Shown: positions 1,946 through 41,428 of the stretch, in pieces | Numbering within the stretch: position 1 is the first letter of the stretch | Layout of the letters: the number at the start of each line of letters is the position of its first letter | Virus record (IMG/VR): IMGVR_UViG_3300046804_000318 | Location: 1 to 41,428 of that record | DNA: 41,428 nucleotides | DNA from: a virus | Reading direction: 5' to 3' (one strand) | The notes under the pieces: model-generated | The model's input: the letters and a program-made list of their open reading frames with translations, nothing else | Databases searched by the model: none | Told to the model about the DNA's origin: nothing | Made by a program: the position numbers and the translations under genes

Positions 1946-2647
1946 TTATGGGGTGTAACCTTGAGCAATCGAGCCGTACCAGTTAGTACCGTCAGCAACA
2001 AACGTCAGAATATCCATCTTGCCAGCCGTTGATGTAATCGTAGGCGCACCAGCAGTACCCCACTTAACACCAGTAAACGTAGCCGTACCTGCACCAGTAG
2101 TAGCAGCTTGCTTTAATAATAAGATAAATGACTTACCAGCCGTAGCAGTAGGCATCGTAAATGTACAAGCCGTAGAAGCTGTGAGAGTAGCTGTCTGAAC
2201 TGTACCGTTAGTCAGAGATAGTGTACTTGCAGTGGTAACCGTGCCAATAGCAACAACGCCTTCGGTATAGTTATTTACCGTAGGATTAGTTAGTGTTTTG
2301 CTAGTAAGTGTCTGAGATGAACCTAAGTTAACTAACGTATCAGTAGCAGCAGGAAACGTATAAGAATACGCACCACTTACTACAAAAGTAGATGCATAAG
2401 CACCAGAAATAGTTAATGTACTAGATGCATTATTAGCCACACCAGTACCACCATTAGCAGGAGGCAAAATACCTGTTACACCAGTCGATAAAGGCAATCC
2501 TGTGGCATTTGTTAATGTCGCTGATGCAGGAGTACCTAATGCGCCACCAGACTGATATTTGTCCGTATTAAGATTAGTGAAGTTGCTATCAACTTCGGTA
2601 TAACTAAGTGCCGAACCTTTGCCAGCACGAGTAACGATAGTGGACAT
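1946..2647 (-). CDS. Tail fibre-like protein
   Basis: A 233-aa protein rich in Thr, Ser, Ala and Gly. The N-terminus (SALSYTEVDSNFTNLNTDK) is the type seen at the start of many phage fibre proteins. It is followed by the phrase GILPPANGGTGVANN and low-complexity beta-strand repeats (LTSKTLTNPTVN). No catalytic motif is visible. It lies between a 128-aa virion-type protein and LamG fibre A, 9 nt upstream of the latter, and its stop overlaps that gene's ribosome site, so the two are probably co-translated. In the overrun segment a similar small fibre-like gene (37783-38457) also precedes a LamG gene. The exact virion position is unknown. Confidence 0.7.
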   Translation of the reverse strand: MSTIVTRAGKGSALSYTEVDSNFTNLNTDKYQSGGALGTPASATLTNATGLPLSTGVTGILPPANGGTGVANNASSTLTISGAYASTFVVSGAYSYTFPAATDTLVNLGSSQTLTSKTLTNPTVNNYTEGVVAIGTVTTASTLSLTNGTVQTATLTASTACTFTMPTATAGKSFILLLKQAATTGAGTATFTGVKWGTAGAPTITSTAGKMDILTFVADGTNWYGSIAQGYTP

Positions 2648-2657
2648 AATTTACCCC

Positions 2658-3044
2658 TTATGCCAAAGTTACTGACAAGTTCGTCGATGTTATCTTAAAT
2701 ATATCACCATTACTAATAGTCTTACTGGTATCTAGTGGTGTGTGATACAAGAGATTACCGCTAGTAACAGCATCACGAATACCAACGTGAGTAATTGTTC
2801 CCCAATCAGCCGTAGCTTGTGGGAATTCAATCGCTGAACTGTTAGAAGTCGCACCGTTAGATGGTGAGCTAAATGTGATCGATTGACGAACATACGAGCC
2901 ACCAGTAATTTCTGTGCCTGTATCCGCATCAGTCGGATCGTTAGTGTACAAAGCTAAATAAGTCGTAGTCGGACTTGTATAGCTAGTATTACGTAACGTT
3001 GCATTAATCAATGCGTTCTCTAAAAAATTACTCATTTCAGCCAT
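2658..3044 (-). CDS. Conserved phage virion-type protein
   Basis: A 128-aa protein of a family I recognise from many environmental phages. It begins with an N-terminal helix (MSNFLENALINATLRNTSY), continues with the TTTYLALYTNDPTDAD segment and IEFPQATADWGTITHVGIRD, and ends in beta strands. Copies elsewhere usually sit among tail-fibre genes and are annotated as fibre or hypothetical. The start has a strong GAGGAG site inside the end of the preceding HNH gene. The residue pattern suggests a small beta-sandwich structural protein. Its function is not demonstrated. Confidence 0.65.
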   Translation of the reverse strand: MAEMSNFLENALINATLRNTSYTSPTTTYLALYTNDPTDADTGTEITGGSYVRQSITFSSPSNGATSNSSAIEFPQATADWGTITHVGIRDAVTSGNLLYHTPLDTSKTISNGDIFKITSTNLSVTLA

Positions 3045-3047
3045 AAT

Positions 3048-3596
3048 TTACTCCTCAAATCTGTTTTGTTTACTACGGTTTTCAAACTGGGTTATAACTC
3101 TTAAATTCCAAGGAACATGCAAACCACATACTTTTTTACCAGTTAATGGAACTATGTGATCTACTTCGTACTTAGTTCCTGTATCCCTAGTCTTTAACCT
3201 TGCTTCAACATAAAACTTTTGTATCTCTTGTTTTAATTCTTCGCTCATCCATTTTGGAACTGCATTTCTTCTTGCCGCTCTCTTAAATGCTTCATAAGCA
3301 AATTTATTGTGTTTTGTTCTTTCATAACAACGCTTTGATTTTTCAGCGTATTTTTCTTTGTTTTCTCTTTGCCATTTTATTACTTTTTCTTTAATTTTTT
3401 CTTTATTTTTATCATAGTTTTCATAATGATATTGCATTGCTTTTTTGCGCTCTGTTTCTGCATTTTTTATGTACCAAGCATCTTTATGCTTTTTTCTACA
3501 AGGTTTGCACCATCTGCTAAATCCATCACTTACAGCCTTTTCTTTACTAAACATCTCATAAGGCTTGATTTCATTGCATTTGCTGCAATTCTTCAC
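3048..3596 (-). CDS. HNH endonuclease with N-terminal zinc ribbon
   Basis: A 182-aa protein starting at GTG (3594-3596) after a GAGGT site. Residues 1-35 hold two CxxC pairs (CSKC, CKPC) as in a zinc ribbon. The middle is a very basic, Lys/Glu-rich helical linker. The C-terminal part carries the HNH core YEVDHIVPLTG followed by HVPWNLRVIT and N-R-S-K-QN. This layout is typical of free-standing or homing-type phage HNH nucleases. The gene is more A/T-rich than its neighbours and sits between the adaptor and a fibre-type gene, where an inserted selfish nuclease would be tolerated. The target site is unknown. Confidence 0.85.
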   Translation of the reverse strand: MKNCSKCNEIKPYEMFSKEKAVSDGFSRWCKPCRKKHKDAWYIKNAETERKKAMQYHYENYDKNKEKIKEKVIKWQRENKEKYAEKSKRCYERTKHNKFAYEAFKRAARRNAVPKWMSEELKQEIQKFYVEARLKTRDTGTKYEVDHIVPLTGKKVCGLHVPWNLRVITQFENRSKQNRFEE

Positions 3597-3600
3597 AGAT

Positions 3601-4209
3601 TTACCTCACTGACATTGACATAGGTTGACCGCCGTATTCACCATTTTGGTCGGCAGTAGAAATTGCTGTAATGCTACGATCATACAAAGCAGCCCATGTC
3701 TGAAGTCGTGCATCATTCATCAAATAGGGTTCAGCCTCTCCCAATGCCGCATACAGCAAAGCATCAGGATAATTACTTAGGAATACGTTAACGATATTGC
3801 TATCAGATAGATAAGCAGGTTTGCCGTAATACAGCATCTGAATACTATAAGCAGTATCAGGTATAGGAGCGAATTGAATCTCTGACGCTAGAATCGTATA
3901 GTTAACTGGAGCACCAGAATCTGTCGTTCTAGCTGTTGCAAAGAAAGCATTAGGTGAAAGGTACGATACTGACGTTACTGGAGTAGTACGCAGATGTACG
4001 TCACGCATCTCTAGGAAGTCCGTAGGCAAGCCGACAGTCTCATCACCTGCTGTGGTACTAGCACGAGCCACAACGAGCATCTGGCGCGTTCTGAGGTCTC
4101 TACGGAGCCGTTCCTCAGCCAATTGGATAAAGTCCGGTATCTGTGCTGTCAGATCACTACGACCTAGATAATTAGCTATCGCAGTTTTTAACGAACTATA
4201 ATCCGTCAT
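3601..4209 (-). CDS. Head-tail adaptor (connector) protein
   Basis: A 202-aa protein whose N-terminus (ANYLGRSDLTAQIPDFIQLA, then EERLRRDLRTRQM) matches the helical start of the SU10-like/gp11-like adaptor family. The middle is beta-rich (VGLPTDFLEMRDVHL, then FAPIPDTAYSIQMLYYGKPA) and the end is helical (LLYAALGEAEPYL, then DARLQTWAALYDRSI). Family members form the ring below the portal that joins head to tail. It lies downstream of portal, scaffold and capsid, as expected. A second, longer member is at 40439-41284, in the overrun segment. The start has an AGGGAAA site. Confidence 0.8.
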   Translation of the reverse strand: MTDYSSLKTAIANYLGRSDLTAQIPDFIQLAEERLRRDLRTRQMLVVARASTTAGDETVGLPTDFLEMRDVHLRTTPVTSVSYLSPNAFFATARTTDSGAPVNYTILASEIQFAPIPDTAYSIQMLYYGKPAYLSDSNIVNVFLSNYPDALLYAALGEAEPYLMNDARLQTWAALYDRSITAISTADQNGEYGGQPMSMSVR

Positions 4210-5249: not shown

Positions 5250-6206
5250 TTACAGAGCCATGTTCAGATCGGCCACGATGCCATGAGCGGCTTCGTTCTT
5301 AACTTCCAGCGTAACTTCAACCAAAACCTGAGTCTTGTCAGAGTCACCAGCTTTTGCAAGCTCGTTAGTCTGGAATGGACGCAGGTAAGCCAAAGCAGCG
5401 TACTCAGGATCAAGGATCAGAGCATCGCGTGTACGCATGAAACGGTTAGGAACAACACTCATTGAGCCGAAGTCCGACAAGTAAACGTCAGCAGCACCAA
5501 CGATAGTAGCTTGTGAGCCACCGTTACCACCATTGACGTTATAACGATAAGCCGACAGACCTGTAAAGCTAGATACTTTCTGTTTACCAGTAGCACCAAC
5601 CATCAGAATCTTAGGTACACCACCCGAAGCAAATACCTCAGCAACTACCGATTTCAGCAGAGTCTCAGTAAATGTACGTGTGTTACCGTCTGTACGAGTC
5701 GATACACCGATAGTTGTAGGATCAGCACCGTTAGTCTGAGCATCAGAGTTGGTTTTGATCCATGACAGCAACGAACCCATCTTACGAGCAGTTGAGTTAG
5801 TTGTACCAGCAGTACGACCTTGATTGCTCAACAGGATAGTTTCCAAGTCACGCTTGAGTTCTTGCGAAGCCTTAGCCAATTGATAAGCCTTTTCAGACTT
5901 ACGACCAGCTTTGTTAACTGCATCCAGAGTGCCAGAGACTTTGATAGTCTTTTGCAGAATCTGAGTGTAGTTACCCAAACGAGTTGTTGGTGACAAAGTA
6001 GCGTCAGAAGCATCAGCACCTTCAACAGCAGCGTTAGCCGTAGTTGCAGCAGCCAATGAGTCAGTTTGCCACTCGTGATAAACAGCAGTAGCCTTAGTTT
6101 TGCCAATAGAACTCATGAATGGAGTTTCTGTAGGCGAAATATCATAAATTACATCGGTCAAATCTTCACGCTGACCAATTGCGTCATAAGCATTATAAAT
6201 TGCCAT
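5250..6206 (-). CDS. Major capsid protein, SU10/DUF5309 type
   Basis: A 318-aa protein matching the HK97-fold family of phage SU10 (DUF5309). It has an N-arm (DLTDVIYDISPTETPFMSSI), an E-loop-like part (HEWQTDSLAAATTANAAVEG), then LGNYTQILQKTIKVSGTLDA and the spine helix (QLAKASQELKRDLETILLSN). The P-domain sheets include SMSVVPNRFMRTRDALILD and the conserved end EVTLEVKNEAAHGIVADL. Its place after portal and scaffold supports the call. The ribosome site is AAGGAT. Gene length is in the family's usual range. Confidence 0.9.
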   Translation of the reverse strand: MAIYNAYDAIGQREDLTDVIYDISPTETPFMSSIGKTKATAVYHEWQTDSLAAATTANAAVEGADASDATLSPTTRLGNYTQILQKTIKVSGTLDAVNKAGRKSEKAYQLAKASQELKRDLETILLSNQGRTAGTTNSTARKMGSLLSWIKTNSDAQTNGADPTTIGVSTRTDGNTRTFTETLLKSVVAEVFASGGVPKILMVGATGKQKVSSFTGLSAYRYNVNGGNGGSQATIVGAADVYLSDFGSMSVVPNRFMRTRDALILDPEYAALAYLRPFQTNELAKAGDSDKTQVLVEVTLEVKNEAAHGIVADLNMAL

Positions 6207-7217: not shown

Positions 7218-7448
7218 CTACAAAATCTTTAACTTTTTTTCGTCAATGATCTTCTGATCTGCTAATCCTTGAATGTAGTTATCAATGGATTCTAAGACTC
7301 TAAGACGTAGATACGCTTCCTCGCGTGTCTCTATATCCCCATAGCCGCTATTCAAAAACTTAGCTATTTCCATACCTCTAAGTTCCTCCATCATATCGAT
7401 GAAGTAATCGTCTCTTAGTAAGTTGTTAGCCCAGTCTGATTTCTTCAC
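7218..7448 (-). CDS. Small protein between portal and scaffold, unknown
   Basis: A 76-aa charged, helical protein (DWANNLLRDDYFIDMMEELR, then ETREEAYLRLRVLESIDNY). It starts with GTG in a 4-nt GTGA overlap with the portal stop, so translation is coupled to the portal. I do not recognise a family. Its position suggests a minor head-assembly factor. Confidence 0.7.
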   Translation of the reverse strand: MKKSDWANNLLRDDYFIDMMEELRGMEIAKFLNSGYGDIETREEAYLRLRVLESIDNYIQGLADQKIIDEKKLKIL

Positions 7449-9547
7449 GCCATACCTTTAGTCAATGCACCAAGTTCACGCAATGCTTTTAGTGTTAACT
7501 CTGCTTGCTTATTCTTTGTGTCCTCGTCAGCCAAGTCCATAGCCAGTACAGCTTGCAATTGCTTAACTGCTAACTCAGCTTCTCTAATGCGAATCTCAGC
7601 AGAATCACGCTGATTCTTCATCTGCATCTCTATACCTTTGCGGGTATATTCGGCTTCGAGTGTTTGCTTCTCAAGGTCAAGTTTTGCCGCATCGATCTGA
7701 GCCTTAGCCTGAGTCTTTTCTCTTTCAACCTGAGCCAGCATCTCAGCAACCTGTGCCTGTGCGTCCGGAGTAGGTGGTTGTGGTTGTGATAAAGCAGCAT
7801 TTTGCTCCGGTGTGATCTCATTCATAAACTCGTTAGCATCTTTGAAACCTGCCGATTCAATGAACTTCGCTAGAGTATTGCGGTATTGACCGATAGATAC
7901 CAATGGATTAGATGGACCATATTGCTGAATGATCTGCTCTTGTTTAGCCAAAATCATCTGAATCATGGCTAACTTTTGCTCTCTGTCACCTGAACCTAGA
8001 CCAACATTAACGCTAATATCGTACTGATTAGCCCACGTTCTAGGATCAAATGTCACGTACTTACCACGCATACGAACGATACGAGGCTTGTCCTGATACT
8101 TGCCTAATAGATGCAAAATGCCTTTAAACAGACTCTTTACGCCTGTCTCAGCAAATATACGAGCGATTAACTCTAGCTTGCCTGAACCTGACTTCATCAT
8201 GGCAGCCACAGCAGTAGCCGTAACATTGTTCAATACGTCTGGATCAAGTCCTGATTGAGCATCGCTAACGCCAGTACGTTTAGCCTGAACTGCATCCAAG
8301 TATTCCAGCATTGGCATGGCTTGACCAAACGTACTCTGCACCGTTAAAGGAACCAAAGCATTCGGATTCTTCATGCGGATAACGCCACCCGGAGTAGCAT
8401 TAAGCAAGTCATCTAGGTTTACCTGACCATCTACCGCACCTACTCGATTGTTGTTAGTTAGATACAGATTGTCTAGGCTTTGTCGAGTAATCGTGGACTT
8501 CTGTAGCTGAATATCCATCGTCCGATCTGCCAACGATTGACCGAAGAACTTATGCGGAATAGGTATAGGACAGATAGAGTGGAATGGAACATAGTCGGTT
8601 TCTTCGTCCTCAAGTATTTCTGAACCGCAATAAACAATGCGGCGCAACTCAGCAATACCGTCATCATCCTCATCAATACGTATATAGCACTCGTACACCT
8701 CTAGCACCTGCATAGAGAAGTCTAGGCTTGAGTTTTGATCTGGCTGTTCACCATTAGGGAAACGAGCAATGCGCTCAGGGCTAAACTCTAAATCGTTATA
8801 TGTTGGCAATTCGTCAACTACATCTTGATCGTAGCCAATAGCAATTAACTCTGAGCGAGTCATTAAGCGACGATGCGCTACGAAGTTAGCCTCCTCAATA
8901 TTACGAGCAGACTTGGATATTAGGAATTCCTCAGGCGGTACATTCTCAATCTTTACTTGACCTGATTCTTTAGTGCGCTGGACATAGACTTCAAACTTAG
9001 GGACTTGTACAACATTGCCCATCATGTCCGACATTTCCGTATATTCTATTTCCTGCTTGACAACTTTAAGAGACTGATCTGATAGCAAGAAAGCAAGCTC
9101 ATCCTCAGATAGATTCTTATACTCTTCTTTGATTACGTCTGTTTTCTCATCCCAATACGATTTAACTACACCTACCTTTTGCAGTAGAGCATCTTTAAAC
9201 CAGTTGTGCAGGATAATTAGACCGTCATTATCACGATAGAAAGCCCAGTTACAGTAGTCTGTAGCCTGTTTAGCTGATTCCTCATCACCCGGACTCTTAG
9301 GCTCAAAGTAAACAATATCTTCAGTCGTAGTAAACACGCGCATCAATTGTGGCAATGCGCCATCGATAGCCTCAGCCACTTCGCCTGTAACGATCTGGCT
9401 GCGACCTTCTTGTTCGTTACCATACGGATTACGCAGGTAATACTCTAGTGCCCTACGACGATCTTCTGTAGTTTCGGTATCTAAATAGCCTATCGAGTTA
9501 TCTATTTCATTCTCGATAATGCCTTTTACTTTGCCTTCATCCATCAT
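7445..9547 (-). CDS. Portal protein, P22-like
   Basis: A 700-aa protein, the length expected for P22-type portals. The N-terminal part (SIGYLDTETTEDRRRALEYY, then LRNPYGNEQEGRSQIVTGEV) and EAIDGALPQLMRVFTTTEDI match the wing/clip region of that family. Further motifs are VPPEEFLISKSARNIEEANF, then VAHRR and PFHSICPIPIPHKFFGQSLA. The C-terminal third is a long Gln/Glu/Lys coiled coil (about residues 590-690) as in P22 barrel tails. The portal forms the dodecameric DNA channel and the packaging motor docking site. It lies directly after the terminase. The ribosome site is AGAGGAA. Confidence 0.92.
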   Translation of the reverse strand: MMDEGKVKGIIENEIDNSIGYLDTETTEDRRRALEYYLRNPYGNEQEGRSQIVTGEVAEAIDGALPQLMRVFTTTEDIVYFEPKSPGDEESAKQATDYCNWAFYRDNDGLIILHNWFKDALLQKVGVVKSYWDEKTDVIKEEYKNLSEDELAFLLSDQSLKVVKQEIEYTEMSDMMGNVVQVPKFEVYVQRTKESGQVKIENVPPEEFLISKSARNIEEANFVAHRRLMTRSELIAIGYDQDVVDELPTYNDLEFSPERIARFPNGEQPDQNSSLDFSMQVLEVYECYIRIDEDDDGIAELRRIVYCGSEILEDEETDYVPFHSICPIPIPHKFFGQSLADRTMDIQLQKSTITRQSLDNLYLTNNNRVGAVDGQVNLDDLLNATPGGVIRMKNPNALVPLTVQSTFGQAMPMLEYLDAVQAKRTGVSDAQSGLDPDVLNNVTATAVAAMMKSGSGKLELIARIFAETGVKSLFKGILHLLGKYQDKPRIVRMRGKYVTFDPRTWANQYDISVNVGLGSGDREQKLAMIQMILAKQEQIIQQYGPSNPLVSIGQYRNTLAKFIESAGFKDANEFMNEITPEQNAALSQPQPPTPDAQAQVAEMLAQVEREKTQAKAQIDAAKLDLEKQTLEAEYTRKGIEMQMKNQRDSAEIRIREAELAVKQLQAVLAMDLADEDTKNKQAELTLKALRELGALTKGMA

Positions 9548-9574: not shown

Positions 9575-10831
9575 TTATACAATCCATTTAGTAGAAATGG
9601 GCAAATCTGACTGCCACGAAGTTTCGTCTTGGTCAAGACTTATTGCAAGATACCTGAAAGCGTCTGAAGCATGGCTAGACCAGTCGTGTAACGGCTTGTC
9701 GTAGAACACTTGCTGACGCTCGTTATATTCCCTACGATAGTTCCTGAGAGCATCCAGACCTGTCTTAGTCTTGTGATCGAACCAGCATTGCGGCAATAGC
9801 CTTCTAACGGCTTGTATGCCATCTGCAACCGACAATCTAGGAGCTACAGTTATATCGAGTCCAGCTTCTTGCAAAACCTCTTTACGGCTCTTTCCTGTGC
9901 CTAGTTCTCTGACTTCGACGTCATGAGGCAAGAACTGCGTGAAGCCTTCGTAGCCGTTATCTTTGAGCCAGCGTACATACCAGTCCAGACCGACACCGTG
10001 GTTTTCCGTAAAATCAATGAGACGTACTTCTTTTCCAACCACCTGAGCAACCCACAGACTAGTAGAATCGCTAATCCCCAAATCCCAAGCAACATAAGAG
10101 CGACATAAGTCATCACGTTCGATAGTGGTGATCCGGTTCTTCGCCTCAAGATCGTTGATAATCTTGCCATAGTAGCTACCTTCAATGGGAGAATCAAAAT
10201 TGCACTCGAACTCCTGATTATACTTATCGTCACCCATCTCCTTACGGGCAGCGTCTAGTTCTTTCTGGTCAATTATGTTGGTTTCACTAGCTTTGAACTC
10301 AACCAAAGCCCAATCTTCTGACTTTGCGGCTCTCTCTTTGAACTCTTTAAAGTGATTGTTCCCTTTAGGAGTGCCAATAAACAAAGCCCATCCTAATCGA
10401 TCAGCTAATGCAGGTCTAATAACTTCGTTCCAGACTTTAGGGTTCATATCGCCAACTTCGTCTAAGGCAACCCCATCGAGATAACCGCCCCTCAATGAGT
10501 CTGGATTATCTGCCCCATACAAAGATATACGCCTACCCCAAAAGTCCACCCTAAGTTCAGATATGTTGACCGTTGCACCTAATGGTCTCGTGTATTTGAC
10601 CAAGTAATCAAAAGCAATCCTCTTGGCTTGTGTATATGTTGGTGCTATATAAGCATATCTAGGTTGCTCTAATTCGCACTCAATAGCTCGTTTTATGATC
10701 TGGTTGATAGCAGCCACAGTTTTCCCGAACCTCCTGTGCATAACCCCAACAACAAATCTATTTGCGTCTAAAGTATTGTGTAGGATTATTTGCTGCTCTC
10801 TAGGAGCGTATGGGATTATTATTTCTGCCAT
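9575..10831 (-). CDS. terL: Terminase large subunit
   Basis: A 418-aa packaging ATPase/nuclease. The Walker A variant is MHRRFGKTVAA near residue 31. Walker B is GVALDEVGDMNPKVWNEV with catalytic Glu, and the coupling motif is LFIGTPKGNNHF. The nuclease domain begins around residue 240 with SYVAWDLGISDSTSLWV (first acidic residue), continues with QFLPHDVEVRELGTGKSR, and ends with the acidic DAFRYLA. All main motifs are intact. It overlaps the small subunit by 13 nt, the usual coupling. With a P22-like portal, headful packaging is likely but not shown. Confidence 0.95.
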   Translation of the reverse strand: MAEIIIPYAPREQQIILHNTLDANRFVVGVMHRRFGKTVAAINQIIKRAIECELEQPRYAYIAPTYTQAKRIAFDYLVKYTRPLGATVNISELRVDFWGRRISLYGADNPDSLRGGYLDGVALDEVGDMNPKVWNEVIRPALADRLGWALFIGTPKGNNHFKEFKERAAKSEDWALVEFKASETNIIDQKELDAARKEMGDDKYNQEFECNFDSPIEGSYYGKIINDLEAKNRITTIERDDLCRSYVAWDLGISDSTSLWVAQVVGKEVRLIDFTENHGVGLDWYVRWLKDNGYEGFTQFLPHDVEVRELGTGKSRKEVLQEAGLDITVAPRLSVADGIQAVRRLLPQCWFDHKTKTGLDALRNYRREYNERQQVFYDKPLHDWSSHASDAFRYLAISLDQDETSWQSDLPISTKWIV

Positions 10832-11177: not shown

Positions 11178-12293
11178 CTATTCGTTATACCCAAACTCAT
11201 AAGGGTATCCTTCTGATGATAAAGTCTTTGCTTTTACTTTTTTAGTAATAATTTCATATTCACCATTTAATGCACTTTCTCCATGATCTTGAGCATATCT
11301 TTTACTTGTTGTTACCCAATCACCATTATTTATATTTTTTACGCCTTTAGGAACTGCACGATATACAGTTATTTCAGCATCTGGCTTTCCTTTTGCTCTA
11401 TACGCAGCAGAAAACCATTGAGAATCTATTTCTGGATTACCAATTCCATATAACCTAGTTCCTTTAGATGAATAAACATCCATAGGCATTATTCCACCTA
11501 GATTATCTATAGTAGCTCCGTAAACATTTGCATTAGGAGCAGTATGAGAACCTTTATATGATAAATCTTCAGTAGCTCCTAATAATCCACCAGTTTGAGA
11601 GCCTGAGAATCTTTTTTGCATTTCAGGAGATACTAAATTTACTGACGAATCTTGATCTATTGCTTTAAATACATCATCTAATGTTGCATTAGGCTGTCCT
11701 ACTGGTCTGCGTCCTAATCTATATGCTGTTTTTGCAGCAGCCTTGGATGATATTTGACCTTGCATTTCTGGAAAGTCTTGCATAACTCTAGCTTGCAAAC
11801 TTTCACCTATTTTTTGACCTCTAAACTTTTCAGGAACTTCTAAACTCAAAACAGATGCGCTTTTATCTGGCTTAGACAATATTTCAATAGTTCCACCACT
11901 TTTAGGGTCTGTATATCTTATTTTTTCTGCTCCAGAACCAAAAATATCAGAAGCATCTCTTTTTACTATATTAAAAACATTCTCTAATGGCTTACCTAAA
12001 ATAGTTCCAGCCGCTAATAAACCACCCTTAGCTAATGCTGCTTTTGCGGCTGTTGCTGGATTTATTGCACCTGATAATAATTCTGTAGTCTGGTTTAACA
12101 ATCCTTGTTGCTCAGGAGGAAGTAACCCCTTAGACGTTAGGTAAGCTGTCGATCCTACCGCTTCTTCAGGCTTTAACATACCTGTCGCTGTAAATGGCAA
12201 TGCAGCCAAATCAACAAATCCTGTGGCTAATTGAGGAATACCCCTAGCGGCTGATAATCCTAAACTTCTTAGCGTTTCCTCAAGTGTTGCCAT
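11178..12293 (-). CDS. Multidomain effector-like protein: GNAT-like plus ADP-ribosyltransferase-like domains
   Basis: A 371-aa protein. Residues 1-110 are hydrophobic and Ala/Gly-rich (RGIPQLATGFVDLAALPF), resembling starts of ejected virion proteins such as the one at 28148-29614. Around residues 140-195 there is a GNAT-like acyl-CoA loop (SLEVPEKFRGQKIGESLQAR) and an AAAKTAYRLGRRP segment like the GNAT C-terminus. From about residue 300 it resembles the ART family of phage polyvalent proteins: ITVYRAVPKGV (Arg), GDWVTTSKRYAQDHGESAL (Ser/Thr) and GEYEIITKKV (Glu). I infer an injected or early protein that modifies host targets. The codons look more A/T-rich than its neighbours. It sits between a glycosyltransferase and terS, overlapping the former by 14 nt. 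Confidence 0.65.
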   Translation of the reverse strand: MATLEETLRSLGLSAARGIPQLATGFVDLAALPFTATGMLKPEEAVGSTAYLTSKGLLPPEQQGLLNQTTELLSGAINPATAAKAALAKGGLLAAGTILGKPLENVFNIVKRDASDIFGSGAEKIRYTDPKSGGTIEILSKPDKSASVLSLEVPEKFRGQKIGESLQARVMQDFPEMQGQISSKAAAKTAYRLGRRPVGQPNATLDDVFKAIDQDSSVNLVSPEMQKRFSGSQTGGLLGATEDLSYKGSHTAPNANVYGATIDNLGGIMPMDVYSSKGTRLYGIGNPEIDSQWFSAAYRAKGKPDAEITVYRAVPKGVKNINNGDWVTTSKRYAQDHGESALNGEYEIITKKVKAKTLSSEGYPYEFGYNE

Positions 12294-32788: not shown

Positions 32789-33585
32789 TAACCCACCACA
32801 ATATAGCCATACGTTTTATCTGCCGTGTTATTAGACCAATGTGCAAGAGTAGCACTTCCTTGCGTCTGACTACTTACATATACATTAGAAGATGCGTTAG
32901 GAGAAATATAATTTACTGTAGCAATAGCACTAGGAATAGCTGGTCTAGTTGGACTACTTCCAGATGGATATTGCTCAATAGAAAGACCTGTATCTGATGG
33001 TCTCCACATGATCTGAATATAGTCATTTGCTTGCAATTCTATAAAGAAATTCATTGCAGCAACAATATGACTAGGATCACCTGAACTTTTCCTAGATGAA
33101 ATACCAAATCGACTATTACTATTTGCTACATCTGTCCCATTTTTCCTAAACCAAACATCTACGTCTTGAGTATCATTTGTCGTATTTTTAAACTGTATGG
33201 AAAACTGAATATTGTAAATTCCATAATTCCTAACATTAATATGCGATGTATTAGATACATATATTCCATTAGAGTAGTCAGTAGTATTAAACGCTACAGC
33301 ATAAGCAGTTGTAGTATTCGCAGCAGCTTGGTCTGTAGAGTCCTGAAACGCTCCATATGGCATTGAATCAGCATAAGCAGCAGCAGATACTGGGATTAGA
33401 AAAATTAAGCTCTCATTGCCTATACGACCGTCATAGAGCGTTGTCGTTGTGGCATTGCCAGTCGCTAAAGTAATCGTTCCAGTATTGTTTGTCTTACCGT
33501 CCATGATTCCACGGACAACCTCACTAACAGCACGTTCATCAGCACCGAATACAGGTAGAGTACGAAACTGTACTGATCTAGTCAT
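32788..33585 (-). CDS. Beta-rich virion surface protein, possibly C1q/TNF-like
   Basis: A 265-aa protein. The N-terminus is MTRSVQFRTLPVFGADERAV. From about residue 95 a jelly-roll-like pattern appears: YGIYNIQFSIQFKNTTNDTQ, DVDVWFRKNGTDVANSNSRF, FIELQANDYIQIMWRPSDTG. The N-I-Q-F-S-I-Q strand and the D-Y-I-Q-I-M-W strand are typical of C1q/TNF-like sandwiches used in receptor binding. It starts in an ATGA overlap with the gp10-like gene stop. Confidence 0.6.
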   Translation of the reverse strand: MTRSVQFRTLPVFGADERAVSEVVRGIMDGKTNNTGTITLATGNATTTTLYDGRIGNESLIFLIPVSAAAYADSMPYGAFQDSTDQAAANTTTAYAVAFNTTDYSNGIYVSNTSHINVRNYGIYNIQFSIQFKNTTNDTQDVDVWFRKNGTDVANSNSRFGISSRKSSGDPSHIVAAMNFFIELQANDYIQIMWRPSDTGLSIEQYPSGSSPTRPAIPSAIATVNYISPNASSNVYVSSQTQGSATLAHWSNNTADKTYGYIVVG

Positions 33586-35006
33586 CGAGTACCCTGCGTA
33601 GCTATTTCAATTTCACAGCCGATAATCGTTTCCCAGTTAGCATTAGTCGGAGTTACTTTAATACGATGGTAATTACCGTTAGCTCTCAATGGCACTCGAT
33701 TCTCTGAGTCTGCTGTCGCTGTCGTTCCAAACTCAATACTCTCTGACAATAGTTTTCTACTGGCAACTGCAACTGACGCTGTTCCATTATCAACAATAGG
33801 TTTTGCCAATGTAATAATAGAACGTCCAATATCAATATCTCCAGAAGTAACGTAAGCAGCCAAGTACGCACCAGAGAAAACCACGATTCTCTGATTTCTA
33901 ACACCAACAAATATAAGCTGACCACCAGCCCAAGTACGAGAATCAAGCGGAATATCTAAGGTATCTAAGTTATTGTTATAGTTATCAATCTGCTCAAGTG
34001 TGGCACTAGGTGTCAGACCATACGCAAGATAGTTCGTATCCGTTAAGCCGTAACTCCACTTATTCAAATCAATGGAGTAGTACAGCAAGAATCGCTTACC
34101 GAAGTTATTCTTAAAGTTCCAGATGACTAATTTGCGTACTGGATCAATCGTTGCACTCATGCCAGTTTTAATTTCACTCAAACTGACGTTATTAAAGAAC
34201 CAACGATTAACTTTTTCTAGTCCAATGTTCTTAACTGACTTGCCATCGCAGACATAGAAGCCATCATCAGCCAAAAAGTACGTTAAACCGCCAAATTGAG
34301 TGATAGAACCATTAGACATACAGCCTAACGTCCTAGAAATAGCGTCAAATTGGAAAAAATACGGACTTCCTGAGTACGTCATGCGATAAAGAGCGCGTTC
34401 TAAGAAGATTAGACCGTATTCTCCACCTGCAATACCAGTAATATCGCCGCCATCAGGCATAACTTGTGAGTCAGACTGAGAAGCAGCACTAGGAGTCCAG
34501 TCAGTCTCGTCATTAATATCTGACCAGTAGACCTTATTCTCCTCACCACCTACGTTAGCAGCCACAACAAAGTCACGAACTACCGTTACATACTTAGCAG
34601 CAGGAGCAGCAGCAGCCAAATCAGCAAAATACGTCGATGAACCTAGATCATAAGCCTGTAATTGGTCTGCACCGTTAGCTAAAATCATCTTAGAGCCAAA
34701 CTGAGTCACATCCCATGCATCAACAGCCGTATAACCTGTAGTCGTTAGCGCATCTAAACTAGCATCGCTAGAGTCAAACTTATAAATCTGTGTAGCACCA
34801 GCAGCAAATAACGTCGATGCACCAGCAAATTTACCTGCAAACGTAATAAGCAAGTTCTGGCCAGCATCATCAGAGTAATCTACTGCTTCACGGAGCGGAG
34901 CATAACCGTTAGTAACTGGATAACAATTGTAGGCATCCATTACAGCACCAGTAACGCCCGGCTGATCTGGTAACCACTCACCGAAAATAACTTTTTGTTT
35001 TGCCAT
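33582..35006 (-). CDS. Tail accessory/hub protein, P22 gp10-like
   Basis: A 474-aa beta-propeller-like protein. YNCYPVTNGYAPLREAVDYS, then NKVYWSDINDETDWTPSAAS, GEYGLIFLERALYRMTYSGS, FQFDAISRTLGCMSNGSITQ and GLTYFLADDGFYVCDG are characteristic of the P22 gp10-type stabilisation proteins that close the tail after packaging. The C-terminal part is beta-rich. It is the single copy in the putative circular genome. A second, longer relative sits in the overrun at 38459-40435. Confidence 0.8.
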   Translation of the reverse strand: MAKQKVIFGEWLPDQPGVTGAVMDAYNCYPVTNGYAPLREAVDYSDDAGQNLLITFAGKFAGASTLFAAGATQIYKFDSSDASLDALTTTGYTAVDAWDVTQFGSKMILANGADQLQAYDLGSSTYFADLAAAAPAAKYVTVVRDFVVAANVGGEENKVYWSDINDETDWTPSAASQSDSQVMPDGGDITGIAGGEYGLIFLERALYRMTYSGSPYFFQFDAISRTLGCMSNGSITQFGGLTYFLADDGFYVCDGKSVKNIGLEKVNRWFFNNVSLSEIKTGMSATIDPVRKLVIWNFKNNFGKRFLLYYSIDLNKWSYGLTDTNYLAYGLTPSATLEQIDNYNNNLDTLDIPLDSRTWAGGQLIFVGVRNQRIVVFSGAYLAAYVTSGDIDIGRSIITLAKPIVDNGTASVAVASRKLLSESIEFGTTATADSENRVPLRANGNYHRIKVTPTNANWETIIGCEIEIATQGTR

Positions 35007-35476
35007 TACTGTCTAGCCCAGTTAGTTGATTCTGGAGTAACTACAGTCCATTCATAAGCCGTAGAGCTACCAATAGCGTCAACAGTTCCATTACCTGTAA
35101 TAACAGCACGACCACCAACTACGTAATTACCTTTTGCAGTAACTGTGCCAGTACCTGTAACTCTAGCAACACCAACTGTTACAAAAGTAGCATTAGCTGT
35201 TACCGTAGCATTTCCAGTTATGCGAGCACGTACTGCTGGAGAAGAAACACCGTTAGCAGTTACAGTAGCCGCACCAGTAATATTTGCTATGCCATTATAT
35301 GTACCTTGACCTCTTGCCGATACTGTAGCGTTACCAGTAATAGTCGCACTAATGCCTTCGTTTTCAGCATAGCCAGAATCCCAATAGCCAGCTAAAACAT
35401 AGACATCAGGAGATGATAAGTCACCATCTCCGTAGCCATACGTCCAGTAATCGTAATCAACGTAATTTGTAGCCAT
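35006..35476 (-). CDS. Repeat-rich beta protein in the tail cluster
   Basis: A 156-aa protein with five repeats of about 20 residues. The core is ITGNATVTANG and variants: ISATITGNATVSARG, IANITGAATVTANG, RARITGNATVTANA, VARVTGTGTVTAKG, RAVITGNGTVDAIG. Alternating hydrophobic residues suggest stacked beta strands (solenoid or fibre shaft). The N-terminus is Tyr/Asp-rich. It lies between a 100-aa protein and the gp10-like gene, with TAATG junctions on both sides. Confidence 0.65.
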   Translation of the reverse strand: MATNYVDYDYWTYGYGDGDLSSPDVYVLAGYWDSGYAENEGISATITGNATVSARGQGTYNGIANITGAATVTANGVSSPAVRARITGNATVTANATFVTVGVARVTGTGTVTAKGNYVVGGRAVITGNGTVDAIGSSTAYEWTVVTPESTNWARQ

Positions 35477-35778
35477 TACAATCCACTAATCTGCTCTGAC
35501 GTTAATGCCTGAACATCTGAAGAACTAATTGTATTAATTTGCGTAGATTCTAAAACAGATATATCGGAAACTTCCGGCAATATGTACTCAACCCACTTTT
35601 CTTCAGACTGACTCCATGACCAATTGCCATCTGGCTTAGGATCACGAATAACCCAACCCGGTGGATACCACCAGACTACCTCTTTGCCAGCAGGACATTC
35701 AGGAGCATCAGCCACTTCAATCCAGCCATCTGTGCCATCCGTCTCAGGTTTTGGTATAGAACCATTTTTAGAATACAT
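35476..35778 (-). CDS. Small conserved tail-cluster protein
   Basis: A 100-aa protein with DGTDGWIEVADAPECPAGKE, a Trp-rich stretch (VVWWYPPGWVIRDPKPDGNW, then SWSQSEEKWVEYI), and a Ser/Thr end (SSDVQALTSEQISGL) that looks like a short attachment or assembly peptide. It follows the LamG fibre gene in both contig arms. The start has an AAGGTGA site. No function is recognised. Confidence 0.6.
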   Translation of the reverse strand: MYSKNGSIPKPETDGTDGWIEVADAPECPAGKEVVWWYPPGWVIRDPKPDGNWSWSQSEEKWVEYILPEVSDISVLESTQINTISSSDVQALTSEQISGL

Positions 35779-35786
35779 ACGTCACC

Positions 35787-37781
35787 TTATTGAACAGGGA
35801 AAGCTGCTGTTGGAGCAGTAAAGTTAGCTGTGTAACGTGCGTATTTAGTAATACGTAGGTCATCAATATAACCAGTTAAAGCAGTATTTCCTAAAGTGAA
35901 TCCACCAGAACCAATAACAGGTCTATTTGCTCCAACTAAATAACTATTTGTATCTGTATATGTAGAGCCAACTTGAGTTCCATTAACAAACATTTTTGTT
36001 GAAGTACCGCTTCTTGATACTGCTAAGTGATACCAAGTATTTATTGAAATTGTTGTTGTTCCTGTAATTTGGTCTGCATTACTTACATTAAGCCTAACTG
36101 AACCGCCTCCAGACGCAATATAAATAAATGGATAAAGACCGTCTGTGCTTGTAGGTCTAAAATCTATTAATGCTTGAGCAGAGGCTGTTGTGGTTACATA
36201 AAACCACATTTCTATGGTGAAATCTCCTGTGCCGAAAGTAAAATTCTGTCCGGCTTGAAGTAACAAATAATCACCAGTACCATCAAAGTACATCGACGTA
36301 GTACCCCACTTCGCCTGTGTCGTGCTGACCTGTGCATTACCTACAGTCTCTAAATCATTCTTAGCAGCAGAGTCGTAGATGCCGGAGTTGGTGAAGTTAG
36401 TGAGAAGCTGGGTGTTAGTTACTGCTGTGGGTGGTGCTGTAGGAATAGTTATTGTTGTGCTTGTTGGGTCGTATGGAGTTGAACCAACAATTAATCTTGC
36501 TCCTGATATATAACCTGCAAACTGTCTTGATGCAGAACTATTTAATTCACCAATAGAAGAAGCAGAACCAAAATTATTGGTTAAAGTTTGAGTTCCTGTG
36601 CTTGACCTTACACCATTTAAGAAAATGGTACATACATTAGATGCGTTTCTAACTGCGGCAACGTGATACCACGTATTTACAGACATTGTTGGAACAGTAA
36701 ATGTATATCCAGCAACTCCATATGCATCGATAGATAGAACTGTCGCAGAGTTTTTTCTGACGTTAAACGCACCAGTTGATACTGTATTGTAATTACCTAT
36801 AAGTGCTTGGTCTGAAGCAATACCACTAGTACAGTAAAACCAACATTCAAAACAAAATTGACTAGTACCAATTGATGTTCCTGTCCAAGTGAGAAAATCC
36901 CCACTACCATCAAAATACCCACTACCACCAACACTAGCCGCTGAATAAGCGGCTGTGGGCGCAAATGGGCTGAAGGCTTGGACGGAAGGTGTACCGTTAG
37001 CGGTAAGAGCAAATGCGTTTGTACTGTTGTCTAAGAAGCGATTGCTTTGGCAGGTAAGTAATGATGTATTGGTAATCGCCGTTAGCGGTGTTGTTGGCAC
37101 TGTAAATGAAGCACCAGAATAAACGGCAGTACCTTTTACAACTCGCAAGTTACTAATGTAACCTGCCATGTATCCACCAGCAGAAAAACCAACTCTGCCA
37201 ATGTAACCATTATTTTGCGTTATGTTGAACGATGGTGTTGCCGTTCCTCCGCGGGTTCCATTAATATATCCTGAAAGCGTAGTGCCATCATAAGACCACG
37301 CTACATGATTCCAAGAGTTAGCAGTTACCGCGCTTGTAGTTAAAGCATTGTTCGCCGAACCAGAATAAGACAATGTTCCGTCTGAAGCAATACGACATCC
37401 AACACCAGCAGTTGACGCACTACTTCTTGTGTCAAATACAAGTATTTCTTGAAGCGTAGTTATATATACCCATGCTTCTACCGTCCATGAACCTGTACCA
37501 AAAGCAAACGCAGCATTTGCGGCAGTATTTAAATAATCACTTGAACCATTGAAATAGTTACTCCACCCCGTCTGACTAAACGGCGTAAACGTACCCTGAG
37601 TCGTATTACCATTTCTAGTAATAGTGAAAGCATTACTGGACGAATCTAGGAACGTATTGTTCTGTGCGCCATTAGTCGTGGTTGTATTAAGCAACAACGT
37701 AACTAAATAAAAATAGGCGTCCGATGCTGCCGCAGCAGCCGAACTAATAGAGGCTATTAAGCCCTGAAGTATTCCGCTCAT
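35787..37781 (-). CDS. LamG-domain tail fibre/adhesin, copy B
   Basis: A 664-aa protein with an N-terminal helix (ISSAAAAASDAYFYLVTLLL) and three concanavalin/LamG-like modules at roughly residues 75-215, 285-435 and 490-640. Each has an aromatic entry strand (WTVEAWVYI, FCFECWFYC, FTIEMWFYV), a W-x-H-V/L-A strand and a GYI-x-x-LR/AR strand. LamG modules bind glycans, so this is a host-range candidate. The last 73 codons begin in the 127-bp repeat shared with copy A. Upstream of that repeat the two copies diverge in patches, some of them still identical. Confidence 0.85.
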   Translation of the reverse strand: MSGILQGLIASISSAAAAASDAYFYLVTLLLNTTTTNGAQNNTFLDSSSNAFTITRNGNTTQGTFTPFSQTGWSNYFNGSSDYLNTAANAAFAFGTGSWTVEAWVYITTLQEILVFDTRSSASTAGVGCRIASDGTLSYSGSANNALTTSAVTANSWNHVAWSYDGTTLSGYINGTRGGTATPSFNITQNNGYIGRVGFSAGGYMAGYISNLRVVKGTAVYSGASFTVPTTPLTAITNTSLLTCQSNRFLDNSTNAFALTANGTPSVQAFSPFAPTAAYSAASVGGSGYFDGSGDFLTWTGTSIGTSQFCFECWFYCTSGIASDQALIGNYNTVSTGAFNVRKNSATVLSIDAYGVAGYTFTVPTMSVNTWYHVAAVRNASNVCTIFLNGVRSSTGTQTLTNNFGSASSIGELNSSASRQFAGYISGARLIVGSTPYDPTSTTITIPTAPPTAVTNTQLLTNFTNSGIYDSAAKNDLETVGNAQVSTTQAKWGTTSMYFDGTGDYLLLQAGQNFTFGTGDFTIEMWFYVTTTASAQALIDFRPTSTDGLYPFIYIASGGGSVRLNVSNADQITGTTTISINTWYHLAVSRSGTSTKMFVNGTQVGSTYTDTNSYLVGANRPVIGSGGFTLGNTALTGYIDDLRITKYARYTANFTAPTAAFPVQ
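35882..36008. repeat. 127-bp exact direct repeat, copy 2 (internal)
   Basis: Identical to bases 1-127. Leftward of it (35881 downward) the coding frame of LamG copy A would continue without a break, which makes 1-35881 a plausible closed circle. Rightward of it the sequence leaves the circle into a different version of the fibre gene. Confidence 0.95.
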
Positions 37782-37782
37782 A

Positions 37783-38457
37783 TTAGGTCAATCCCGAACC
37801 AGAAATAATCCACGTAGTCGAAGTCATTTTTACAGCCGTTGCTATACCATACTGAGCAAGCGTTCTGTTACCAGTAGTTCCGGTAGAAGACAAATACATC
37901 GTGTCAGTCGTTACAGCAACAGTCACAGCGTTAGCTGACATATTGATAAACGTAACAGCAGCACCCACAGCAAACGCTACGTTAGAGTTAGCTGGAATTG
38001 TGTACGTAGCAGCAGCCTGACCAACAGGGTGATATAACTGACGTCCAGTATCAGCTAACAAGACGTTGTATGAACCATTCTGTGAGTTCTGAGGAATGGT
38101 CAGATAACCGACCGTGTTGCTTCCGTCAATCGTACTGTTAGCTACGTTAGCGGTTACGTTGCCGCTGCTAATGGTCACATTAGTCAACGTCAAGTTACCA
38201 ATGCTAGAAACCGTAGAGCCAAGCGTTAGTGTCGTATTTCCGACAATGACATTGCTATTGGCAAGATAACCGTTAGGGAACGCACTGGCTACAGAACTAA
38301 TAGTGACGTTAGCAAACGTCATATTATTTAATGTAGTAACAGTATTTCCTAGCTGGATAGCCGTATTACCAAGAGTGATAGTAGTAGCAAAATTACTATC
38401 CAATTGAGACAACGGAAGTTGTCCAGTAGCAGTCGAAAAAGTATATGGAACAGCCAT
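37783..38457 (-). CDS. Fibre-like protein preceding LamG copy B
   Basis: A 224-aa protein. The start (TGQLPLSQLDSNFATTITLG) resembles that of the gene at 1946-2647. The body is Asn/Thr/Val-rich with repeated beta phrases (LGNTAIQLGNTVTTLNNMTF, ANVTISS...). The end (VAVTTDTMYLSSTGTTGNRT) resembles fibre tips. It lies 1-2 nt from both neighbours. It is probably the counterpart of the 233-aa gene in the other arm, and belongs to the overrun segment. Confidence 0.65.
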   Translation of the reverse strand: MAVPYTFSTATGQLPLSQLDSNFATTITLGNTAIQLGNTVTTLNNMTFANVTISSVASAFPNGYLANSNVIVGNTTLTLGSTVSSIGNLTLTNVTISSGNVTANVANSTIDGSNTVGYLTIPQNSQNGSYNVLLADTGRQLYHPVGQAAATYTIPANSNVAFAVGAAVTFINMSANAVTVAVTTDTMYLSSTGTTGNRTLAQYGIATAVKMTSTTWIISGSGLT

Positions 38458-38458
38458 T

Positions 38459-40435
38459 TTAGAACCTCACTCTCAATTCATGTTCGTACTCAAAACCGTT
38501 GTACACAACACCACCATTGGTTGATGTAACGGTCATACCAAGATATTTGCCGTATTGCTTGGCATCTGTTTTGTACAGCGTATATCCCGACGCTGCTGGA
38601 TACCAAGAAACTACTTGCAAACTGTTATTTACCCAAGGAATTACTGCCGAATAATTGTTAATCCACTCAATCGTCTGACCAAGCTGAACTGCTGGGCTTT
38701 GACCAGATTCAGAATCAACAGTTACTGTAATCAATGAAGCATTAGTTAGTGTTGCCTCAATACCTACTTTTAAAGCCTGTTTAGTACGAATTGGGTCTTT
38801 CATTGGATTCAACGACGTCTGCACATAGCTGCTTACATTAGCCGTTGTGTTCGCATACATCTTGACGCACGATGTTCCATCCGTACCGTACAACGTAATC
38901 TTGCCACCTACCGGAGCAGAAACAACGTGTTTTAAATTGTTTCCTGCGCTAGTAAAAAACCATTTCTTCTCAAAGAAAATAGCTTGTATATATCTGTTGT
39001 CGCTTGATGTTCCCAGACCACCTGTGTACCGAAAATTAAACGCAGCACACAAAATGTTGTTTAAAAGAACCTGACCGCCAGTAGTAGTGCCAGTAGTAAA
39101 ATCAATATTGGTAAATATGCCGTCCAGAGAGTCAGAAATCTTTGACGTTGTAGAGCCAACAAGCGCATAGACACCATAATCATTCATAAACAGCACAGAA
39201 CGGAAGTACGGGAAAATGGCATACGCCAATTTGGTACCCACCGATGCACTGACGTTCGTATTCGTAAACAGCGTAGTTCCAGCCGTCGTAACCCTGACAT
39301 CCGAAAACACGTTAATGCTATCGTCGCCAAAGATATACAAAAAGTTATTGGCTGACAATAATTGAATAATGTTTCCGTGCAATGTCGCGTCAGTAAGCAC
39401 TACCGTACCAGCCGACACCGTTACAAAGTCACTGTATGAACCAGCCGCTGAGTAGTAAATAGTCCTACCGCTAGAAATCCAAACACGACCAGAAAACGAC
39501 TGAATACCTGAATTGCTGTTTGTATTAACAATTGCTTTGGCTGTTGCGTTGGAACCGCTACCACCAGAGATGGACACCGTAATGTTAGCTTGATTCGTGT
39601 AGCCAGAGCCTACGTTGGTCATAATGACCTGCGTTACGATGTTGCCGCTAGTAATGGCTTGACCTGCCGCATTAGCCCCTCCACCACCGGAAATAGTCAC
39701 GGTTGGGTTAGACGTATAACCAACGCCACCATTGGTCACTAAAACGGCTACAGTGCCTTGAGCAAATGTGGTGATAGACGCTACAGCATTAGCTCCTGAG
39801 CCTCCACCACCGTTAAACGTAATGGTTGGAGAGGATGTATAACCAGAGCCAGCCTCAAGTAAAGTAACAGACGAAACGGCGTTAGCCGAAATAGTAGCGA
39901 TGGCTGTGGCCTGTACTCCGTTCGTCTGATTCGGTGCTGATATAACGACAGAAGGGGCAGACGTATACCCTGACCCTTTACTGACAATACCAATAGAACC
40001 CACTGAACCAACAGAAATTAAGTCAACCGCATCCCACGTAAAGTAACCTTTAGCCGGGTCAATAATCAGAATACGGTCGTTTTTCCATTGGCTAATGTTC
40101 ATACCGCTGGTTGAGAATGTTCCAGCAGAAGCTAATGTGCCTTTGACATTGGTTGTCAGGTTGACGTATTCGCAGCTTCCGTCATCTTGGAAAGCTATCA
40201 AATAGTCCGTAATTCCAATGTTAGCTGAGAAAAAATTAACAACGGTATGAGCAAAAGTAACGCTGCCAACAGCATCATAGGTCGGAGTAATCTTTAAGTT
40301 GCCATAGCCAATAGGCATGGCGTTTTCAAGCCAGTAGAACTCATCGTCACCGATAGCCGTGCGGTTAGCTTTCGTGTTGACTCCACGAAAGTTCTTAACG
40401 ACTTCATACGATTTTTTCTGTTCTGCCGCTGCCAT
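38459..40435 (-). CDS. Tail accessory protein, gp10-like, with inserted GxGYTS repeats
   Basis: A 658-aa protein. The N-terminus (VVKNFRGVNTKANRTAIGDD, then EFYWLENAMPIGYGNLKITP) and the later GRVWISSGRTIYYSAAGSYS, FLYIFGDDSINVFSDV and NDYGVYALVGSTTSKISDSL fit phage tail hub/stabilisation proteins. Residues about 145-310 hold four repeats of about 40 aa (GSGYTSAPSVVIS, GSGYTSSPTITFNGGGGSGA, GVGYTSNPTVTISGGGGANA, GSGYTNQANITVSISGGSGS) that look like an insertion, since without them the size is near the 474-aa relative. It belongs to the overrun segment. Confidence 0.72.
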   Translation of the reverse strand: MAAAEQKKSYEVVKNFRGVNTKANRTAIGDDEFYWLENAMPIGYGNLKITPTYDAVGSVTFAHTVVNFFSANIGITDYLIAFQDDGSCEYVNLTTNVKGTLASAGTFSTSGMNISQWKNDRILIIDPAKGYFTWDAVDLISVGSVGSIGIVSKGSGYTSAPSVVISAPNQTNGVQATAIATISANAVSSVTLLEAGSGYTSSPTITFNGGGGSGANAVASITTFAQGTVAVLVTNGGVGYTSNPTVTISGGGGANAAGQAITSGNIVTQVIMTNVGSGYTNQANITVSISGGSGSNATAKAIVNTNSNSGIQSFSGRVWISSGRTIYYSAAGSYSDFVTVSAGTVVLTDATLHGNIIQLLSANNFLYIFGDDSINVFSDVRVTTAGTTLFTNTNVSASVGTKLAYAIFPYFRSVLFMNDYGVYALVGSTTSKISDSLDGIFTNIDFTTGTTTGGQVLLNNILCAAFNFRYTGGLGTSSDNRYIQAIFFEKKWFFTSAGNNLKHVVSAPVGGKITLYGTDGTSCVKMYANTTANVSSYVQTSLNPMKDPIRTKQALKVGIEATLTNASLITVTVDSESGQSPAVQLGQTIEWINNYSAVIPWVNNSLQVVSWYPAASGYTLYKTDAKQYGKYLGMTVTSTNGGVVYNGFEYEHELRVRF

Positions 40436-40438
40436 GAC

Positions 40439-41284
40439 CTAGTACGCTCTGGAATAAGGGTCAGGCAGTCTCCGAGTGTAGATGGACGCCTGAACCGCTT
40501 GAATTTGCTGTTTGTACTGCCCTAAATAAATCTCAGCCTCACCAAACGACTGTTCATAGTATTTGGCTAGATAAGCAGCATAAAATTTAACTGGATTAGA
40601 GTACGGGTCATTAATGTTGTCTGTGTCAGACAGATTCACTAAATCTGTCGGCAGAAGAACCGTATCTAAGTCAATTACGTAAGCTATGTCAGGAACAGGT
40701 CCAATATAAATTTGAGATTGCCCATAAATGCTATAGGCAACCGGCGTTCCGATGCGGTTCTGCCAATAACGCAACTGTGCGTTAAAGTCTGTCCAAGGCA
40801 TATAGCGCAACGGTATTCTGGAATTTCCCCAATAGAGGTTAATGTTGATGACGTCCAGAGTAAGATTTCCAGACGGCAAACAAGAATAATTGATTAATTC
40901 TGAGGGTCCGGCGTACTGAATCGTAGCCGTGCCGCTAGTAAACGGTGTGCTTGGCGGGTAAATGTTGTTTGCGGAAGGGTAATTAGGAGCGTCTCCTAAA
41001 ACACCGCCAACAGTTACCGCATAAATATAGATATTGGAAAATACGTAATCACCCGCACTTACAGCCAAGCCGGATGACCAAATAACAGGGGTATTGCCGC
41101 CAGCCACCGGGGTACAAGGCGTTTGGCTTGTTTGGACCGTGCGGAGACACCCTGTGTCACGAACAACACGCGCTCTAGCACCATTAATGTAGTCAGTTAA
41201 CTGACTGTTGGTGTAAAAGTTAGCGTTTGCATCGTGCAGCAGGTATCTAACAGCAGTAATGTAGCTTTGCAGTGTCTGCGCCAT
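40439..41284 (-). CDS. Head-tail adaptor-like protein, second version
   Basis: A 281-aa protein. The start (SYITAVRYLLHDANANFYTN, then SQLTDYINGARARVVRDTGC) and end (ALLAY-type helix AAYLAKYYEQSFGEAEIYLG, then QYKQQIQAVQASIYTRRLP) match the adaptor family seen at 3601-4209. A central beta region of about 80 residues is extra. It lies 3 nt upstream of the gp10-like gene. A phage normally carries one such gene, which supports the view that this segment comes from another genome. Confidence 0.7.
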   Translation of the reverse strand: MAQTLQSYITAVRYLLHDANANFYTNSQLTDYINGARARVVRDTGCLRTVQTSQTPCTPVAGGNTPVIWSSGLAVSAGDYVFSNIYIYAVTVGGVLGDAPNYPSANNIYPPSTPFTSGTATIQYAGPSELINYSCLPSGNLTLDVININLYWGNSRIPLRYMPWTDFNAQLRYWQNRIGTPVAYSIYGQSQIYIGPVPDIAYVIDLDTVLLPTDLVNLSDTDNINDPYSNPVKFYAAYLAKYYEQSFGEAEIYLGQYKQQIQAVQASIYTRRLPDPYSRAY

Positions 41285-41296
41285 TTACGGTCCATA

Positions 41297-41428
41297 TTAA
41301 GCTGCTACATTGACTTTTCCCCCTGCCTCTTTGGAAGGCAGAGGTACTCTTTCAACCACCGGGGATAACGAGTGGACTTTCTTTGGCGGCTGGTCCGTAA
41401 TCAGAATCTTTTCAAGGATTTTTAATCC
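41297..41428 (-). CDS. C-terminal end of an unknown gene, cut by window edge
   Basis: An open frame enters at the right edge (GLKILEKILITDQPPKKVHS, then LSPVVERVPLPSKEAGGKVN, VAA) and stops at TAA 41297-41299, 12 nt before the adaptor-like gene. The Pro/Lys-rich end looks like a flexible protein tail. No family can be named from 43 residues. Confidence 0.55.
   Translation of the reverse strand, partial: GLKILEKILITDQPPKKVHSLSPVVERVPLPSKEAGGKVNVAA

Follow-up and report, generated by a model that had tools for sequence, protein, structure and literature searches.

The window, meaning the whole stretch of DNA that was analysed, is a linear IMG/VR virus record of 41,428 base pairs (bp), IMGVR_UViG_3300046804_000318, that is continuous and contains no Ns. 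It carries two sets of adaptor, small fibre and LamG adhesin genes, and its bases 1–127 are identical to positions 35882–36008, with the first mismatch at base 128. An earlier inspection of the letters alone, referred to below as the sequence-only reading, had placed at 36009–41428 an overrun with duplicated neck genes, and position 36009 is indeed the first base past the 127-nucleotide (nt) exact match. That reading held that the overrun probably belonged to a related phage sharing the LamG 3' end or to a population variant with a rearranged tail module. The part up to 35881 is designated phage A and the source of the overrun phage B; L numbers denote loci fetched from IMG/VR, and protein lengths are given in amino acids (aa). 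The features of the junction and of the two adaptor-to-adhesin regions are as follows.

1–127, no strand: left copy of the junction 127-mer, at the contig end within LamG1; same letters as 35882–36008
35882–36008, no strand: junction 127-mer, internal copy; probable misjoin of phage A (left) and phage B (right)
1–35881, no strand: phage A, complete when closed to a circle (35,881 bp); genes ordered as in its relatives, LamG1 closing in frame
2–1936, minus strand: LamG1 adhesin, phage A; three Laminin_G_3 stretches (1.5e-49), 3' end at 35881–35787 in the circle
1946–2647, minus strand: fibre 1, phage A; lineage-A N-terminal part, C-terminal part common across lineages
2658–3044, minus strand: 128-aa fibre I protein, Pfam Gp80 (PF23140, 2.7e-51)
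3048–3596, minus strand: HNH-type gene (label of the sequence-only reading); at this place in some relatives only
3601–4209, minus strand: adaptor 1, phage A; PF24175 SU10_adaptor (1.4e-35)
33582–35006, minus strand: nozzle (gp10-like), 474 aa, phage A; matches PDB 8zkm and 8zkk
35476–35778, minus strand: 100-aa protein; in 39 fetched loci, on A, B and other backbones, a relative stands after LamG
35787–37781, minus strand: LamG2, with three Laminin_G_3 stretches; 36009 to the gene start assigned to phage B
37783–38457, minus strand: fibre 2, phage B; N-terminal part matches 87 B and 1 A of 88 loci, 90% to L006
38459–40435, minus strand: 658-aa neck/tail protein, phage B; 87–90% in the closest B contigs, nozzle by position only
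40439–41284, minus strand: adaptor 2, phage B; PF24175 (2.3e-13), 96% to the L006 record
41285–41428, minus strand: contig right end upstream of adaptor 2, phage B; a 30-mer from here is exact in 17 contigs

On the minus strand, the right end reads adaptor 2, 658-aa protein, small fibre and LamG. The circle reads adaptor 1, HNH-type gene, 128-aa Gp80-family protein, fibre 1 and LamG1, followed across the closure by the 100-aa protein, a 156-aa protein and the 474-aa nozzle. Both orders agree with those given by the sequence-only reading. Its second adaptor was confirmed by a score of 51.5 bits against Pfam SU10_adaptor (gathering cut-off 27), and its second LamG gene by Laminin_G_3 stretches matching those of LamG1 in number. 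The second small fibre holds by position, but the halves of the two fibres in the window do not match each other at E <= 1e-4.

Positions 1–35881 are complete without the overrun and need none of its genes. Closed across the junction, LamG1 is a gene of 2031 nt (676 aa), in frame and without an internal stop, and from terminase to tail the genes are arranged as in L167 and L168. The circle is syntenic with many IMG/VR contigs of a lineage with SU10-type portal, capsid and adaptor (lineage A). Named relatives are Podoviridae sp. ctXG6705 (MW202481.1) and Methylophilales phage Venkman EXVC282S (MT375522.1), in which terminase, portal, scaffold, capsid, adaptor, Gp80 and nozzle stand in the same order; portal identity is 63% and 55%, respectively. 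Between Gp80 and nozzle, both carry adhesin genes other than those of phage A. The backbone genes of phage A are listed here.

5250–6206, minus strand: major capsid protein; PF17236 SU10_MCP (7.2e-104)
7445–9547, minus strand: portal; PF23899 SU10_portal (2.6e-224)
9575–10831, minus strand: terminase large subunit; phrog_2 (1.3e-35)

The adaptor, the 658-aa-type protein and the fibre N-terminus of the overrun are those of a second lineage (lineage B), represented by Bacteriophage sp. ctz7E20 (MW202753.1; 35,640 bp, circular), in which the adaptor (65%) is directly followed by a 658-aa-type protein (72%). In ctz7E20 different genes come next. The window stops a short way upstream of adaptor 2 and does not contain the terminase, portal and capsid of that lineage. 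In each of the 13 long B loci inspected, relatives of these three ctz7E20 genes lie upstream of adaptor 2, some of them partial (for example in L048, L054 and L064). In the closest B contig, L006, identity is 95–96% for adaptor 2 and 90% for both the 658-aa protein and fibre 2, and the terminal 86 nt of the contig right end are identical in L016, L017, L019, L252 and L261. Relatives at up to 90–96% identity in a separate, abundant lineage are more than chance would give, and the overrun is most likely the start of a different phage, not a duplication of phage A genes. A single linear, real genome with duplicated adaptor, neck, fibre and LamG genes would suit the continuity and lack of Ns of the contig. 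However, the second set is no duplicate, since the 658-aa protein has no detectable homology to nozzle 1 and the set matches the other lineage at up to 96%; moreover, the circle needs no overrun and the contig starts exactly at the repeated 127-mer. Such a genome is considered extremely improbable.

The markers of the two lineages were not found together. IMG/VR loci were the best 80 of 536 relatives for the 658-aa protein, the best 80 of at least 597 for nozzle 1 and the best 80 of 180 for the portal. Loci were cut at 10 kb flanks, and hence whole records were searched as well. The portal, capsid, scaffold, terminase, adaptor 1, Gp80 and nozzle of phage A were absent from all 80 loci found with the 658-aa protein (76 of which have adaptor 2 above 30% coverage), and neither adaptor 2 nor the 658-aa protein occurred in any of 160 A loci. 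In a count of 341 loci, which includes repeats of the same record and accepts a marker at an identity of at least 50% over more than 30% of its length, 166 had A markers, 101 had B markers, 74 had neither and none had both. Likewise, the 658-aa protein was found in 0 of 29 whole A records (control search: 3 of 3 B records, 0 of 2 A records) and nozzle 1 in 0 of 24 whole B records (control search: 4 of 4 A records, 0 of 2 B records).

Weak matches to the A portal were obtained in 6 of 24 whole B records (22–26% over part of the length, in frames of 539–551 aa), and these we take to be B's own portal. Similarly, weak matches to adaptor 2 in 4 of 13 whole A records (23–35%, frames of 209–210 aa) are taken to be adaptor 1; the two adaptors are thus distant homologues, in keeping with their common Pfam family, SU10_adaptor. 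Phage B therefore appears, on these sequence comparisons, not to be a close relative of phage A, with strong similarity confined to the adhesin cassette. Thus the proposal that the segment comes from another phage sharing the LamG 3' end is upheld by the lineage-exclusive genes, the exact 127-nt junction and the complete 35,881-bp circle, while "related" overstates the closeness, given a B portal at just 22–26% over part of its length.

Where contigs adjoin at a branching node of a de Bruijn graph, they have exactly k bases in common. Contig ends were compared among 238 non-redundant IMG/VR loci of both lineages, counting exact end-anchored matches of at least 30 nt and excluding six same-sample rows that each paired two loci of one record. 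Between distinct contigs of the same sample 12 such matches were found, 6 of them exactly 127 nt long (3 contig pairs, 3 samples), compared with 9 matches of 127 nt among 1,026 between contigs of different samples. Because same-sample contigs also overlap by exactly 127 nt, bases 1–127 are very probably an assembly-graph node. In a scan of 323 sequences, some of them loci that end short of their contig's end, the window alone had a terminal stretch of at least 30 nt repeated internally.

Together, the exact 127-nt junction, the lineage-exclusive genes, the in-frame closure and the same-sample 127-nt overlaps lead us to read the contig as an assembly chimera of two phages, A (a complete circle) and B (36009–41428), with a probability of about 0.93. 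Near their 3' ends, the LamG genes of A and B would agree letter for letter over 127 nt or more, a stretch that at an assembler k of 127 would become one graph node with two exits. The assembly path would then have made one full turn of phage A and, instead of closing the circle, have taken the exit to phage B. Both the assembler's choice of this path and the presence of the two phages in one sample are inferred. A k-long identical stretch in two co-occurring phages is sufficient for a misjoin; the shared exact stretch here has 127 nt, the length of the assumed k setting, and the separate lineages occur together neither on any of the 341 loci nor in any whole record that was searched. The part of the window to the left of the junction is A sequence, because in the B contig L029 it is 109-aa and 343-aa genes that come after LamG and the 100-aa gene, instead of A's 156-aa gene and nozzle. 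As written, the LamG2 reading frame would itself be a chimera, its last part indistinguishable between A and B.

Several points weigh against this assignment. That the pipelines of the Joint Genome Institute (JGI) run metaSPAdes up to k = 127 is our assumption, and only the 127-nt overlaps themselves were observed. The k-mer list of the JGI pipeline was not found in the accessible portions of PMC11237453, PMC11460016 and PMC10390333. A junction 80-mer was present in no other IMG/VR contig, in a search that may miss near-identical records, and the true continuation of phage B past the junction is therefore not seen; nor was a contig from the record's own sample found. That the contig was extended into LamG2 points to some backing in the data, and a real hybrid would supply this as well. 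Finally, the tetranucleotide distance of the overrun from A is 0.275, a value that none of 72 A windows reached. In four B relatives, however, the same segment lies 0.269–0.310 from the genome that carries it, and the distance of the overrun to B backgrounds is no smaller than that of A. Since the segment is equally deviant in B genomes, composition was dropped as evidence of a foreign overrun, and the k-mer comparison that the sequence-only reading had put forward as a check does not discriminate.

One candidate for the continuation of phage B was rejected. L344 begins in a LamG 3' end whose protein matches at 92% over 25 residues, but similarity of the DNA is just 70%. The remaining relatives of the LamG C-terminus are at 62% or less.

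A cassette of fibre tip, LamG and 100-aa gene (1946–2647, 37783–38457, 35476–37781) recurs on A, B and other backbones (L269, L284, L288, L290, L294, L295). The loci were gathered with A and B queries, and the counts below do not reflect how common each combination is in nature. At the N-terminus, the fibres keep to their lineage: that of fibre 1 was found in 58 loci (52 A, 0 B, 6 other) and that of fibre 2 in 88 (87 B, 1 A). The C-termini cross lineages, with 26 B, 16 A and 15 other loci for fibre 1 (57 loci) and 27 A, 19 B and 6 other for fibre 2 (52 loci). LamG with the 100-aa gene after it occurs in 24 A loci, 2 B loci and 13 others. LamG1 and LamG2 do not differ over 127 nt; in the 444 nt that come next, identity swings between 66% and 97%, and 130 of 190 codons are the same; stretches of 97–100% alternate with stretches of 66–82% nucleotide identity in this shared region. 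Further out, identity is ~45–75% in 50-column blocks, one block being identical. The receptor-side cassette thus appears, from these patterns, to be exchanged between lineages, and exchange of receptor-side parts is generally known for tail fibres.

This mosaicism bears on the possibility of a real recombinant, a population variant in which recombination in LamG joined the adaptor–neck–fibre module of B to the downstream genes of A and which coexists with normal A. The mosaic cassette and the alternating identity of the two LamG genes, where recombination seems to happen, are in its favour. Such a recombinant would, however, either combine two neck sets, its adaptor coming from B and its nozzle from A, or have no matching portal. 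No such mix of markers was seen in the 341 loci or the whole records, and the length of the junction equals the k-like overlap of other contigs; a recombinant is accordingly judged very improbable. The other option of the sequence-only reading, a population variant of phage A whose tail module is rearranged, is likewise not supported, as 0 of 341 loci mix the marker sets. That the sample held a hybrid phage, in which LamG recombination put the B-type adaptor, 658-aa protein and fibre onto an A-type genome and one virion would combine connector parts of two lineages, is very improbable. For the assembly chimera, LamG is the place of gluing because lineages A and B have the mosaic adhesin cassette in common.

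The 474-aa protein matched solved nozzles (8zkm, E 3.5e-11; 8zkk, E 6.5e-11). The 658-aa protein did not match this nozzle in profile–profile comparison (hhalign probability 0.3%), and no match was found among PDB sequences or in Pfam. The description as a second gp10-like protein could not be sustained on these searches; it is gp10-like only by size and by position after the adaptor, and may serve as a nozzle. Predicted models of the 658-aa protein (from 23 sequences) and nozzle 1 (from 22 sequences) both had a predicted local distance difference test (pLDDT) score of 48, at which fold matches of the 658-aa model are not meaningful and were not used. The top Foldseek matches of the nozzle 1 model, 9nwi, 8zkk, 8zkm and 7z47, agree with the sequence match, although the model is poor at this score. 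No relatives of the 658-aa protein that could give a prophage or host lead were found in genome contigs, where there were 31 pattern matches. The protein contains a glycine-rich repeated insert (39512–40018, about residues 140–308), modelled as beta-rich with good local confidence; its best PHROG matches fall there and are baseplate, fibre and structural proteins. In the records of L200 and L203, relatives of phage A, nozzle matches fall in two pieces within one 554-aa frame, which suggests an inserted domain.

Chimeric contigs of co-existing viruses with similar regions, as described in PMC5610896, likewise join two distinct genomes at an identical shared stretch. In the present case, by contrast, the stretch lies in an adhesin cassette common to two lineages that are distinct in other respects, and one of the joined genomes is complete as a circle. 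The simulated-virome benchmark in that source had chimeric contigs in each assembly, usually amounting to <5% of contigs of at least 10 kb. The finding is an ordinary one, most likely an assembly chimera. The record should be cut at 35882–36008, its left part being a complete phage genome. The overrun is the reason for its listing as linear in IMG/VR, and genes of the right part should be excluded from the gene content of phage A. Adhesin cassettes common to distinct phages are natural gluing points in short-read assemblies, and apparent duplications that start exactly one k-mer after a contig-end repeat deserve suspicion.

Two further genes of phage A were noted. The HNH-type gene between adaptor 1 and the Gp80 gene is in the same place in L167 and absent from L168, a patchy presence as for a mobile homing-type endonuclease. 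A 371-aa protein (11178–12293) adjoins the small terminase and has no Pfam match; its residues 241–370 match phrog_2579 ("ParB C-terminal domain"), and a relative at 88% is present in L230.

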